In this document: positions 11,151 through 41,440 of the stretch, piece by piece
Numbering within the stretch: the stretch's first letter is position 1
How the letters are laid out: the number at the start of each line of letters is the position of its first letter
Origin: an uncultured Bacteroidota bacterium
Lineage (GTDB): Bacteria; Bacteroidota; Bacteroidia; 2-12-FULL-35-15
Assembly (NCBI GenBank): GCA_903870175.1
Contig: CAIQBY010000260.1
Location: 1 to 45,749, forward strand
Length of the DNA: 45,749 nt
Direction of reading: 5' to 3'
Notes under the pieces: generated by a model
What the model saw: the letters and a program-made list of their open reading frames with translations, nothing else
Database searches by the model: none
Told to the model about the DNA's origin: nothing
Made by a program: the position numbers and the translations under genes

Positions 11151-11267
11151 ATTTTGCTTTAATGATTATTTATTTGGGAGATTAGATAAAGATTATTGTT
11201 TATGATTTTTTACAAAGCAGTTTGCCAATTCAATTATTACTTAATACCTTATTTCACTTTTACCTCG

Positions 11268-11632
11268 ACTCATTTCTTTTTGATAAAAACTCATTAGTTG
11301 GTTATCAAAACTAATTGGTTTTTATGCTCGCCTCGTTGCTTTTTATTCTTTACTCAACCCTTTTTTTGCTCAGCTCAAACCTTATTACCCTCAGCTCATT
11401 GGTTTTTGTGCTTTACTCGGTAGTTTTTGCCCAAAACTCCCGAGTAAATGGCATTTACTCCCGAGCTTTTCGTCATTTACTCCTGAGTAAACCCGTTTTA
11501 CTCCCGAGTAAAGTGCTTTTACTCCTGAGTTTTGGCTCCAAACCAATGAGTAAAGCATCAAAACTACCGAGTTGCGGTCAAACACCTGTAAACATTGAAG
11601 AAAATGATTTGAGTTTTGACCCAAAACCTTAA
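11268..11632. repeat. Array A: degenerate tandem repeat with 21-bp period
   Basis: Successive copies begin at 11268, 11289, 11310, 11331, 11352, 11373, 11394, 11415, 11436, 11457, 11479, 11500, 11521, 11542, 11563, 11584 and 11605. Every step is 21 bp except one of 22. The most regular copies read ACTCCCGAGT or ACTCCTGAGT followed by a T-rich spacer; TTTACTCCCGAGTAAA is a perfect dyad apart from its two central bases. Outer copies are more diverged (ACTCATTAG, GCTCAAACC, ACTACCGAG); a weaker copy may start at 11247. The overlapping open frames of 105 and 77 codons are by-products of a period divisible by three. There is no gene within the array; 11633-11795 holds nothing recognisable. Confidence 0.85.
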
Positions 11633-23642: not shown

Positions 23643-23852
23643 GGGAGTTCCCTGTTTTTATTTGGGAGCTCCTGTTTTTAAAAAGGGACTTCCCGTTTTT
23701 TATTCAGGAGTTCCTGTTTTTTAAAAGGGAGTTCCCTGTTTTTATTTAGGAGCTCAAGTTTTTAAAAAGGGAGTTCCCGTTTTTTATTTGGGAGCTCCTT
23801 TATTTTATTTGGGAGTTCCTGTTTTTTAAAATTGCCTCCGATTATTTTTACT
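23643..23852. repeat. Array B: degenerate tandem repeat with exact 21-bp period
   Basis: Copies start at 23643, 23664, 23685, 23706, 23727, 23748, 23769, 23790 and 23811, with a decayed tenth at 23832. All steps are exactly 21 bp. The core is GGGAGYTCCY, nearly self-complementary (GGGAGTTCCC, GGGAGCTCC), followed by GTTTTT. Copies alternate between ATTT-type spacers (1, 3, 5, 7) and AAAA-type spacers (2, 4, 6), a 42-bp higher order; the first and fifth copies are identical. The array lies between a predicted minus-strand promoter (23881-23888) and the start codon at 23567, so it is probably transcribed as a leader. The remainder of 23568-23933 is plain AT-rich sequence. Confidence 0.92.
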
Positions 23853-23880
23853 TTCAAAACCTTCAATGACCTTAACACGA

Positions 23881-23888
23881 CAAAAGTA
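23881..23888 (-). promoter_or_regulatory. Predicted -7 box reading into array B
   Basis: The minus strand reads TACTTTTG, a match to TAnnTTTG, located after the stop codon of 23934-24374 and just upstream of array B. It would produce a transcript carrying the array as an approximately 300-base leader of the gene at 22848-23567. Confidence 0.45.
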
Positions 23889-25128: not shown

Positions 25129-25797
25129 ATGGTTGTGATAAAAAAATTGGTGAATTACTTCCTATCTATATTAATAGTACTTTTTTCTTTCAGAGGATTT
25201 GCGCAGGATTCAACCAAAACAAAGAAATTAGGTTTGATTGTGAAAGCGGATGTGCCGTTGCCCGTTGCAGATTTAGTTTTTTCAAAAGTAGAAAGAGATA
25301 TGTCGCTAACCGTTGAAAAAATAATAAATAGAAGAAATAGTGTACAAGTGACAGGAACGTATCATTTTATTAAAGCCAATGCCAATTCTCCAGATAGTGC
25401 ATTAGCCAATAGAAGAAATATATTTCAAATTATTCCTGAATATAAATTCTTTATTTTGAAACGGAAAGTTTGTTCGGGTCCTTATGTGGGAGCCTATTTA
25501 AAATATATAAGAGATGAAGAAATTTGGGATGAATGGACTGAAACCATTAATTACAATGCTTATCCTAATACTAAAAACACACACTTTTTTGCTGATTATT
25601 ATTATTTCAAATATGCAATTGGAGCAATTACAGGCTGCCAATTTTATATTAGAAACAGAGTAACATTTGATTTTTTATTTGGTGTTGGAGCCAGTAAAAC
25701 ATTTTTGGTGCAAAAGGTTTCAGGAGAAAATATCGGTACTGTTTTGGGTTCGGATTTGGATGGAAGACTTGCTTTTAATGTAGGATATAAGTTTTAA
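25129..25797 (+). CDS. DUF3575-like outer-membrane beta-barrel protein (paralogue 1)
   Basis: The 222-residue protein has a signal peptide (hydrophobic core LSILIVLFSF, ending RGFAQ) and alternating amphipathic strands ending LAFNVGYKF with the terminal Phe of outer-membrane barrels. It is clearly paralogous to 39622-40269 on the minus strand: both share GLIVK, PEYKFFILKRKVCSGPYVG, GAITG and LDGRLAFNVGYKF or LDGRFAINIGYKF. DUF3575 proteins are 8-strand-type barrels of unknown function. The central loop differs most between paralogues, consistent with a surface-exposed region. Confidence 0.75.
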   Translation: MVVIKKLVNYFLSILIVLFSFRGFAQDSTKTKKLGLIVKADVPLPVADLVFSKVERDMSLTVEKIINRRNSVQVTGTYHFIKANANSPDSALANRRNIFQIIPEYKFFILKRKVCSGPYVGAYLKYIRDEEIWDEWTETINYNAYPNTKNTHFFADYYYFKYAIGAITGCQFYIRNRVTFDFLFGVGASKTFLVQKVSGENIGTVLGSDLDGRLAFNVGYKF

Positions 25798-25852: not shown

Positions 25853-26230
25853 ATGTCAATAATAAAATTACCCTTATTGTTTGAAGGCTCCAAAGGAGAA
25901 AAAACATTAGTAGCACTTTTTGATTCGGGCGCTACATTTTCCTGCATGAGTTTGCAATCGGCAGAAGGGTTGGCAACCTTGGAAAAAATGCGCCACCCGT
26001 TAGAAGTAGCAACTGCTTCAATGGGTATTTATCTAAAAATAGAATATGCAATTCGGTTGGATTTTTATTATAACGACATCCGTCTTTCTGATGAATTTAT
26101 GGTAATTCCCAATCTTTCGGAAGATGTAATATTAGGAGTAAACACCTTTCAAAAATGGAGAATCAAATTGGATTTTGAACACGATACCGTAATCATCGAC
26201 CCCAAAGTAGCAAAAGCAATCCTTAAATAA
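25853..26230 (+). CDS. Retropepsin-like aspartic protease, single domain
   Basis: The 125 residues match a single retroviral-type aspartyl protease lobe, which would act as a homodimer. The catalytic motif is LFDSGATFSCMS (D-S-G) near residue 24, and the flap/C-terminal strand region is VILGVNTFQKWRIKLDF near residue 96. There is no signal peptide, so it is probably cytoplasmic. It stands alone and converges on valS with a 6-base gap. The substrate is unknown. It is distinct from the RimK-associated family member at 2336-2836. Confidence 0.75.
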   Translation: MSIIKLPLLFEGSKGEKTLVALFDSGATFSCMSLQSAEGLATLEKMRHPLEVATASMGIYLKIEYAIRLDFYYNDIRLSDEFMVIPNLSEDVILGVNTFQKWRIKLDFEHDTVIIDPKVAKAILK

Positions 26231-39621: not shown

Positions 39622-40269
39622 TTAAAATTTATATCCAATATTTATTGCAAACCTGCCGTCTAAATTCCATGATGGGATAAAATCTCCATTGTTAATATAA
39701 GTGCTGTTGGATTTTGTTGTTAAGATTTTCAACTCTCTCTCTCCGCCTAAACCAATTAGGAAATCAAGTACAAACCTATTTTTTATACAATATTGAAAGC
39801 CTGTAATAGCACCTAAAGAGAATGAATAAAAATAATAATAATCAGTATTTGTTGGATAGAAAACACCATCATGCCAAACATTCCCTTTCGCTGCTTCATA
39901 CATAAAAGTAATATAAGATCCTACATATGGGCCTGAACAAACTTTCCTTTTCAAAATAAAAAATTTGTATTCAGGAATAATAAGTGTTCTTTTACTTTCG
40001 AGAGAAGCACTAGAAAAGTAAATATTCGGTTCTTCATATTTATAATATAGATAAATACCAGTTAATTGAATACTCTGCCTTTTTCCAATTGTTTTTTCTA
40101 TGGTTAAAGATGCTTGTTTTTCAGTATATTTTGATGTCAAAGCAAGTACAGGCAATAGTATATCCGTTTTCACAATCAACCCAATTGGTTTTCTTTTGAT
40201 GGAATCCTGTCCTTCCATTTTTCCAAAGAAACAAAAACAAAACAATACAATAAACAAATGCCTTTTCAT
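39622..40269 (-). CDS. DUF3575-like outer-membrane beta-barrel protein (paralogue 2)
   Basis: The protein has 215 residues from the start chosen here, MKRHLFIVLFCFCFFGKMEG, a signal peptide. An upstream ATG at 40290 would sit on the predicted -7 box at 40292-40299, so it is unlikely to be used. The rest matches the paralogue at 25129-25797 (GLIVKTDILLPVLAL, PEYKFFILKRKVCSGPYVG, LDGRFAINIGYKF), with a different central loop. It is an 8-strand-type barrel of unknown role. It lies between the T9SS remnant and the terminator of the array C unit. Confidence 0.75.
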   Translation of the reverse strand: MKRHLFIVLFCFCFFGKMEGQDSIKRKPIGLIVKTDILLPVLALTSKYTEKQASLTIEKTIGKRQSIQLTGIYLYYKYEEPNIYFSSASLESKRTLIIPEYKFFILKRKVCSGPYVGSYITFMYEAAKGNVWHDGVFYPTNTDYYYFYSFSLGAITGFQYCIKNRFVLDFLIGLGGERELKILTTKSNSTYINNGDFIPSWNLDGRFAINIGYKF

Positions 40270-40291
40270 TCCTTCAATTTTAAATTCCAAA

Positions 40292-40328: not shown

Positions 40329-40364
40329 AAAGAATCCCGTTCTTTTTCAATAACGGGATTCTTT
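40329..40364 (-). terminator. Terminator directly abutting array C
   Basis: A perfect 13-bp stem (AAAGAATCCCGTT / AACGGGATTCTTT) with a 10-base loop; on the minus strand it is followed by GTTTTTGG. The first array C copy begins at 40365, the very next base, so a transcript of 40502-41440 would carry the whole array as its 3' untranslated region. Confidence 0.8.
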
Positions 40365-40511
40365 AAGGTAATGTCGAAGATTTTTGTGGTAAAAACTTAA
40401 ATTTCTGTGGTAATCTTCAAAAATTCCGTGGTAAAAACTTCATTTTTTGTGGTAGAATTTTAAAATTCTTTGGTAAAAACATAGTTTTTCTTCATCAAAA
40501 CTTAGTTATTC
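40365..40511. repeat. Array C: degenerate tandem repeat with exact 21-bp period
   Basis: Copies begin at 40365, 40386, 40407, 40428, 40449, 40470 and 40491, all exactly 21 bp apart. The core is GTGGTA, usually GTGGTAAAAACTT, followed by a T-rich end (TTTCT, TTTTT). Odd full copies (40386, 40428, 40470) share TGGTAAAAAC while even ones (40407, 40449) have GTGGTAATC or GTGGTAGAA, a 42-bp alternation. The last copy overlaps the stop codon of the gene at 40502. The core differs completely from those of arrays A and B, but period and layout are the same. Confidence 0.9.
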
Positions 40512-41440
40512 ATATAACTCATTTGGCAAGTTACTGTTAAACTTGGGTTATTAATTGTCATTGTCGTATAACCTTTTTCAACTTGCCAGTGGTCGCCTGC
40601 AACAATAACGATAGGTGTTCCGGTTCCTTTTGCACCTTTGGTAATTGTAAGCGGCACGGTTCCTGTATTTTGAATAATGCTTCCGGCAACTACAGAATAT
40701 AATATTTTGGTGCCGCCCATTTTAAATTTGGCAATAGTTAATTTAGCACCTTTTGGAGTACTGTCAATCACAAATCCCCAATCGCCACCACTTTTTGGTG
40801 TAAGCGGAAACTGTGAAACAATAAATCCGCCTGTGCCACGCAAATCTTCAAATACAGGTGCTATTGCTGCATCGCGTTTTTCGCAAAGCGATTTACTCTG
40901 TTTTTCGGCAGCCAAAAAGTCAGTATTGTTTTGCTTAATATCAGTCAATGCATCAAGGTTAGCTGCCAAATCAATTTTGTTTTGAGATAAAAAAGTAGCG
41001 GTAATAGCCCTTGTGCCTGCCGGTAACGAATTATTGTAATTAATCAATTCAGCAATTGCTGCGCAAATTTCAGCTCTGTCGGTAGGGTACACAATTTTAT
41101 TGCCTTCCACCTTTATGCCATAGTCGCCAAGCGTTTTCACTGTTTTGGCATAAAACTTTTTAAGCATCTGCACCATTAATTTATGATCTTTAAATACAGG
41201 ATTTAACCCTACTTCGCACAGTTCGAGCAGCTTTTTAGAGTTTTTGGTAGATGCATCAAACTGAGTGTTTAATTTAACTGCCTCAATTACTGCTGTTGCA
41301 TTTATACCCATATCAATCTTTTGCTGAGCGAAGTAAGGAATAAGGATGCTGCCGGCGCCGTCTTTCGTGTTTTTGTCATTCGTGTTTGTGAACAAAGTTA
41401 CTTTGCCCTCAAATGTAATCGGTAATACAATTCTTGCCAT
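40502..41440 (-). CDS. Unknown two-part protein associated with array C
   Basis: The 312 residues have no signal peptide or membrane segment. Residues about 30-190 look all-helical (AAVIEAVKLNTQFDASTKNS, KFYAKTVKTLGDYGIKV, ALTDIKQNNTDFLAAEKQSK). The last 110 are beta-rich (GDWGFVIDSTPKGAKLTIAK, IQNTGTVPLTITKGAKGTG, VIVAGDHWQVEKGYTTMTI) and suggest a beta-sandwich or Ig-like end. There is no catalytic motif. I do not recognise a named family. It is a single-gene minus-strand unit with a terminator-like hairpin in its upstream region, array C immediately after the stop codon and then a terminator. It occupies an accessory segment between HU and mutY. Confidence 0.75.
   Translation of the reverse strand: MARIVLPITFEGKVTLFTNTNDKNTKDGAGSILIPYFAQQKIDMGINATAVIEAVKLNTQFDASTKNSKKLLELCEVGLNPVFKDHKLMVQMLKKFYAKTVKTLGDYGIKVEGNKIVYPTDRAEICAAIAELINYNNSLPAGTRAITATFLSQNKIDLAANLDALTDIKQNNTDFLAAEKQSKSLCEKRDAAIAPVFEDLRGTGGFIVSQFPLTPKSGGDWGFVIDSTPKGAKLTIAKFKMGGTKILYSVVAGSIIQNTGTVPLTITKGAKGTGTPIVIVAGDHWQVEKGYTTMTINNPSLTVTCQMSYMNN

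Follow-up and report, generated by a model that had tools for sequence, protein, structure and literature searches.

The genome of an uncultured Bacteroidota bacterium contains a genome-wide class of non-coding arrays of 21-bp units, in which the period is fixed and the sequence of the unit is free. One of these arrays, array B, occupies the 5′ leader of a gene for a 239-aa protein in the window, i.e., the whole stretch of 45,749 nt that was analyzed. The arrays have an excess of dyads, they lie upstream of genes of several fast-evolving effector families, and genes for LuxR- or LytTR-type regulators are enriched beside these families. Taken together, these features suggest a multi-site genetic switch of a new kind. 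The initial annotation of the window had described array B, and it had missed the genome-wide class, the tie to a gene family, and the neighbor that is a candidate LuxR-type regulator. The features of the window are listed in Table 1.

Table 1. Arrays, neighboring genes, and leader elements in the window
Feature	Position	Strand	Description
Array A	11255..11625	.	21-bp array of the same class as array B; unrelated unit, strongly diverged; no linked effector recognized
Effector gene, 239 aa	22848..23567	-	Helical N-terminal half, strand-rich C-terminal half; diverged multi-copy family; no Pfam match
Array B	23643..23831	-	Nine 21-bp units; dyad GGGAGYTCCC-type core and A/T-rich linker; 42-bp alternation
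Promoter-proximal unit of another type (TTGCCTCC...)	23832..23852	-	Kept in G012 and L003
Conserved leader, promoter to array	23853..23880	-	Putative transcript start near 23876
Promoter box TACTTTTG, TAnnTTTG-type	23881..23888	-	TAAATTTG in the G012 ortholog
Candidate regulator gene, 146 aa	23934..24374	-	Putative C-terminal helix-turn-helix of divergent LuxR (GerE) type
Array C	40360..40514	.	21-bp array of the same class as array B; unrelated unit, centered on TGTGGTAAAA-like sequence; none of the studied effector families recognized as linked

Anatomy of array B and its leader

The units of array B start at positions 23643, 23664, 23685, 23706, 23727, 23748, 23769, 23790, and 23811. The nine copies at a spacing of exactly 21 bp that had been annotated are thus present at the claimed positions, and the array is free of indels. 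TRF reported periods of 21, 42, and 84. The self-identity at the best lag (42) was 88/105 and far exceeded the values obtained after dinucleotide shuffling of this intergenic stretch (500 shuffles; mean 49.5, maximum 60). The core GGGAGYTCC is near-palindromic, as had been noted before, and the GGGAGYTCCC cores make the array dyad-symmetric; its folding is below that of column-permuted controls on both strands (z of -3.8 and -2.4). A search of the own genome revealed the unit of array B at a single other locus, L002. Array B is not a CRISPR array, as the 21-mers are contiguous and have no spacers between them. One claim of the initial annotation had to be revised: the supposed decayed copy at 23832 is better read as a distinct conserved unit (TTGCCTCCGATTATTTTTACT). 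The orthologous array of the sister species G012 and the paralogous array L003 both carry this unit at the corresponding end, and in one array of G004 it is the unit that is repeated.

A period of 21 bp could also stem from protein repeats of seven residues, and some of the 21-nt periodicities in the genome are indeed coding (L027:15068, L021:5264). For array B, the coding of heptapeptides was rejected because stop codons are present in all six frames and the open-frame cover is 0. In addition, 83 array sequences gave no codon-position signal (observed variation 0.446, null 0.467), in a test that also missed three coding controls. We consider it extremely improbable that the arrays encode heptapeptide repeats. 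Further coding periodicities of 21/42 nt were observed in long open frames (L044:4449-4698, L027:14950-15336), and they are to be separated from the non-coding arrays.

Array B lies behind a box that matches the promoter consensus TAnnTTTG (PMC9723704). The same work supplied the location of the -7 box with respect to the transcript start, and the start site at array B is a putative one. The differences between the box and its counterpart in G012 are confined to the two nn positions of the consensus. Boxes of this type are enriched on the distal side of gene-linked arrays (14 versus 2.8 expected) and are depleted inside the arrays (1 versus 3.3). The conservation of the box in G012 and the distal enrichment are in agreement with the earlier proposal that array B is probably transcribed as a leader.

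At the orthologous locus of G012, the order of regulator, array, and effector is preserved, and the leader aligns well with that of array B. The units of the two arrays differ (cores like TGGTGCACCA versus GGGAGTTCCC in array B); the A/T-rich parts and the terminal TTGCCTCC unit are shared. One frame of the leader region (23830-23880, minus strand) reads LKVLKVKIIGGN, and the differences to G012 in this frame are all synonymous, as judged by eye. It is possibly a leader peptide; its residues are not kept in L003. A second locus (L003 and L029:1987-2260) contains the leader and terminal unit of array B together with a different array unit, and the effector gene is absent.

A genome-wide class of arrays with fixed period and free sequence

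A sample of 482 kb from the genome of the window (G000; 3.95 Mb, 423 contigs) contained 36 periodic places, and the lag was 21, 42, or 63 in 32 of them. The same lags were found in 25 of the 27 places without a long open frame, and the best lag was a multiple of 21 in 26 of the 31 periodic intergenic stretches. The presence of about 25 non-coding arrays in 482 kb extrapolates to roughly 200 arrays per genome. The units are locus-specific and differ at nearly every locus, and the period is constant. Thus, the earlier statement that the spacing is stricter than the sequence is correct not only for array B, but across the genome. For about two thirds of the G000 arrays, neither an effector nor a regulator was recognized alongside. 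The orphan arrays, the regulators, and the loci of two further gene families (A3 and L041, see below) represent a partial sampling, and the genomes are draft assemblies. A description of such arrays was not found in the open-licence PMC literature.

The sister species G005, G004, and G012 also have 21-bp arrays. In the remaining sampled members of the genus (1-200 kb each), one array was found, which is situated within an open frame that encodes YadA-like repeats, and the eight genomes of other families in the array survey contained no such arrays. For G034, G035, and G042, the presence of arrays was scored at the loci of family genes only. In a ValS tree, the four array-bearing genomes that were included group together as one clade (support 90/97), and therefore, a single event may account for the presence or absence of arrays within the genus. 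Non-coding 21-bp arrays were also observed in other Bacteroidota records (L213:13921-14079, L157:2965-3235, L203:13367-13522), and thus, the class extends beyond this genus.

The constancy of the period was quantified with 74 array entries, some loci being entered twice. The entries contain 3,586 substitutions versus 79 indel events (45 to 1), and 26 of the latter come from two arrays that are poorly handled by the alignment of a single unit. Arrays are often free of indels despite a divergence of 20–37%: 44 of the 74 entries have none at a mean divergence of 0.21, with some at 0.30-0.37. It could be argued that the arrays are functionless satellites, generated by a copying process in steps of 21 bp (slippage, staggered breaks, or similar) that amplifies local sequences. 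This would agree with locus-specific and homogenized units, with the restriction of arrays to some genomes, and with the many orphans. However, it does not predict indel-free arrays at 30-37% divergence, the excess of dyads, the regulator genes, or the upstream placement relative to particular genes with no downstream cases (see below), and we regard a neutral origin as quite improbable.

The dyad content of the arrays exceeds that of column-permuted arrays, with a mean z of -2.25 for the sense and -2.15 for the antisense strand. When G-U pairs were forbidden, the excess remained, at -2.2 in the linked arrays and at -1.9 in the orphans. These values are averages, and the excess is strong in about half of the arrays. 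The initial annotation had offered two readings of the cores of array B, a binding site for a dimeric protein or a part of RNA hairpins. In the latter case, serial hairpins of the transcribed array would govern translation, stability, or termination of the effector mRNA, and both the likely transcription of the array as a leader and its better folding compared to column-permuted arrays are consistent with this. However, the excess is equal for the two strands and persists without G-U pairs, and thus, nothing favors the RNA strand. In addition, an Rfam scan yielded sub-threshold chance matches alone, with no family above the gathering threshold, and orphan arrays occur away from effector genes. 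We therefore think that a structured RNA leader has little probability. Dyads beyond those of column-permuted arrays and equal on both strands favor the dimer site, whereas a specific function as RNA hairpin is not supported, given the lack of strand bias and of an Rfam family.

Effector families and regulator genes beside the arrays

Homologs of the 239-aa gene are present in G012, G005, G004, and on a second contig of G000, and an array lies just upstream in each case. A profile search detected the family in 8 of 36 genomes of the genus and in 18 of 295 genomes of the class. Upstream of family genes, 28 of 46 loci had a period of 21, 42, or 63, four had another period, and 14 had none, whereas a 21-bp-period array was found downstream at none of 45 loci (one G005 locus was counted twice). 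The initial annotation had listed an absence of the array beside homologs of the neighboring gene among the observations that would speak against it; arrays were found to adjoin most of the homologs (28 of about 45). Array-bearing family loci also occur in genomes of other families (G044, G093, G120, G219, and G299). For the linked arrays, the median length is 223 bp, and the median distance from the end of the array to the start codon is 132 bp.

The family was not found in the phages or plasmids searched, and neither the 239-aa protein nor its family has a Pfam match, to a replication initiator or otherwise. AlphaFold without an alignment yielded a mean pLDDT of 37 for the 239-aa protein, and a histone fold of its N-terminus was considered and rejected (hmmsearch E 0.67, hhalign probability 2.9%).

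Two more gene families have upstream arrays, A3 (L060 and L091) and L041, and no homology was detectable among the three families. A3 is present in the same eight genomes of the genus as the first family, and L041 is present in seven of these eight. Beyond the genus, the strong hits for A3 (G050, G299) and for L041 (G299) are in genomes that also contain the first family. Shared ancestry can explain the co-distribution within the genus; it explains G299 less easily. The locus L091 of G004 was considered as the ortholog of array B and rejected, because the 147-aa protein encoded next to it differs from the neighbor of array B and the effector belongs to family A3. At L284 and L285 (G015, G211), an effector-family gene and a nearby LytTR gene were observed and an array was undetected; these loci are perhaps an array-less or ancestral form.

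The window also encodes two paralogous DUF3575-like secreted proteins (25129-25797, plus strand; 39622-40290, minus strand), which share 'EYKFFILKRKVCSGPYVG' and one of which adjoins array C. A related protein is encoded beside the orthologous locus in G012. The gene at 25853-26230 (plus strand) encodes a small bacterial protein with a retropepsin-like aspartyl protease domain (RVP_2, E 1.8e-6).

On the other side of array B, the 146-aa protein has no Pfam match of its own, but homologs were found in G012 and G022, and the three proteins can be aligned across the helix-turn-helix region. The G022 homolog has a GerE match that passes the Pfam cut-off (E 1.1e-9), and its gene adjoins an array. 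The 146-aa neighbor of array B is thus a candidate for a divergent LuxR-type regulator.

Regulator genes are enriched beside family genes in general. With a profile that was not trained on the ORFs counted, six LuxR-type ORFs were found in 186 kb near family genes versus four in 3,355 kb (about 25-fold). A broader profile, which was trained on such ORFs, retrieved 13 loci near family genes versus 11 ORFs. For LytTR-type ORFs, the profile was built from control loci, and the numbers were ten in 184 kb versus seven in 3,358 kb (about 26-fold). The enrichment of LuxR- or LytTR-type genes ranges from 20- to 26-fold. Domain-limited profiles were used in place of an iterated helix-turn-helix profile, which had drifted into receiver domains. 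A check with Pfam identified LytTR in seven of the ORFs (two just below the cut-off), GerE in most others, and HxlR and HTH_28 in one each. LytTR genes are present at other family loci, e.g., L265, L291, and L296, whereas the neighbor of array B is GerE-like. Most regulator ORFs lie beyond the array, opposite the effector, which is also the order at array B. About half of the family genes have no recognized regulator within the 1.5 kb examined.

These regulator genes bear on a further explanation, namely that one architectural or nucleoid-type protein, shape-reading or oligomerizing, acts genome-wide on any 21-bp-phased combination of a dyad and an A/T run. One period with a free sequence, the orphan arrays, the lack of a preference for gene orientation, and the limitation to some genomes would all fit, and there are precedents in RemA and BldC, which form ordered multimers on DNA that is poorly conserved and consists of direct repeats or is otherwise repetitive (PMC8481266, PMC5859096). 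However, the local regulator genes would be left unexplained, as would the homogeneity within arrays together with the difference between arrays. Such an architectural role seems unlikely to us.

A putative switch and its relation to known systems

We hypothesize that array B is a locus-specific operator array to which the linked regulator binds cooperatively and in helical phase, and we hold this to be somewhat more probable than its negation, with the binding itself being inferred. The switch would be a module of three parts, the regulator gene, the leader array (23643-23852), and the effector gene. Each unit contains a dyad core and the next one follows after two helical turns, and dimers of the regulator could thus line up along a single face of the double helix, where cooperative binding would control whether the effector gene is transcribed. 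In the simplest case the effect would be negative, exerted by a repressor or a road-block, because the conserved promoter box precedes array B. Units would be copied within an array by concerted evolution and would change rapidly between loci and species, with the regulator presumably diverging along with its array. The spacing would stay fixed because, as we propose, the geometry of the protein-protein contacts requires it to be constant. LuxR-type regulators (dyads) and LytTR-type regulators (direct repeats) share the 21-bp period, and therefore, no single binding mode explains all arrays. The two loci of G015 and G211 with a LytTR gene and an effector gene but without an array run counter to the operator model, as do the arrays beside which no effector or regulator was recognized and the family genes that lack a recognized regulator or a detectable array.

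A more far-reaching version is speculative and rather doubtful: the approximately 200 period-locked, sequence-free arrays might be maintained by a dedicated activity for copying and homogenizing the units, and each array might co-evolve with its private regulator to yield an insulated switch for each fast-evolving effector. In any case, this is a genome-wide class of bacterial arrays with conserved spacing, free sequence, and a reproducible neighborhood of regulator, array, and effector, and it offers a handle on large unannotated gene families of the Bacteroidota. If each regulator binds its array, the loci would constitute a natural set of regulator-operator pairs, and it could be asked how the specificity of paralogs diverges without cross-talk.

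Several known systems share individual features with the arrays. LuxR/NarL (GerE-type) regulators are dimeric helix-turn-helix proteins that bind to dyad sites of about 20 bp. The neighbor of array B is a candidate member of the same type, but LuxR/NarL operators ordinarily consist of one or a few sites with a shared consensus, in contrast to period-locked arrays with a locus-private sequence. Plasmid iterons are direct repeats of about 21 bp upstream of a gene; the genes downstream of the arrays, however, match no Rep family, and these genes are present in many chromosomal copies. In the case of RemA and BldC, one global protein serves all sites, and to our knowledge, private pairs of array and regulator have not been described for systems of this type. 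REP/BIME elements are intergenic, palindromic, and present in many copies per genome (PMC3733652), and the arrays are similar in all three respects. However, the consensus of REP/BIME elements is common across loci, whereas that of the arrays is local to each array at a period fixed at 21 bp, as is exemplified by array B, the unit of which recurs at only one other locus.

The LytTR family has binding sites (AgrA, the LRS operons of HdrR/BrsR, RcoM, CoxC) that are direct repeats two helical turns apart. The repeats comprise 9 bp and are spaced by 10-13 bp, CoxC has three repeats at 18-21 bp, the LRS operons mostly have 12-bp spacers, and the regulator gene is adjacent and often autoregulated in LytTR systems (PMC11347149, PMC6193735). 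The direct repeats at a spacing of two helical turns are also found in array B, at exactly 21 bp, and LytTR genes adjoin several of the arrays. The differences are that LytTR operators have two or three repeats, whereas the arrays have about ten, with units that are free to differ between loci, and that at array B the candidate regulator is of a putative LuxR type and the array is situated behind the promoter box and not ahead of it.
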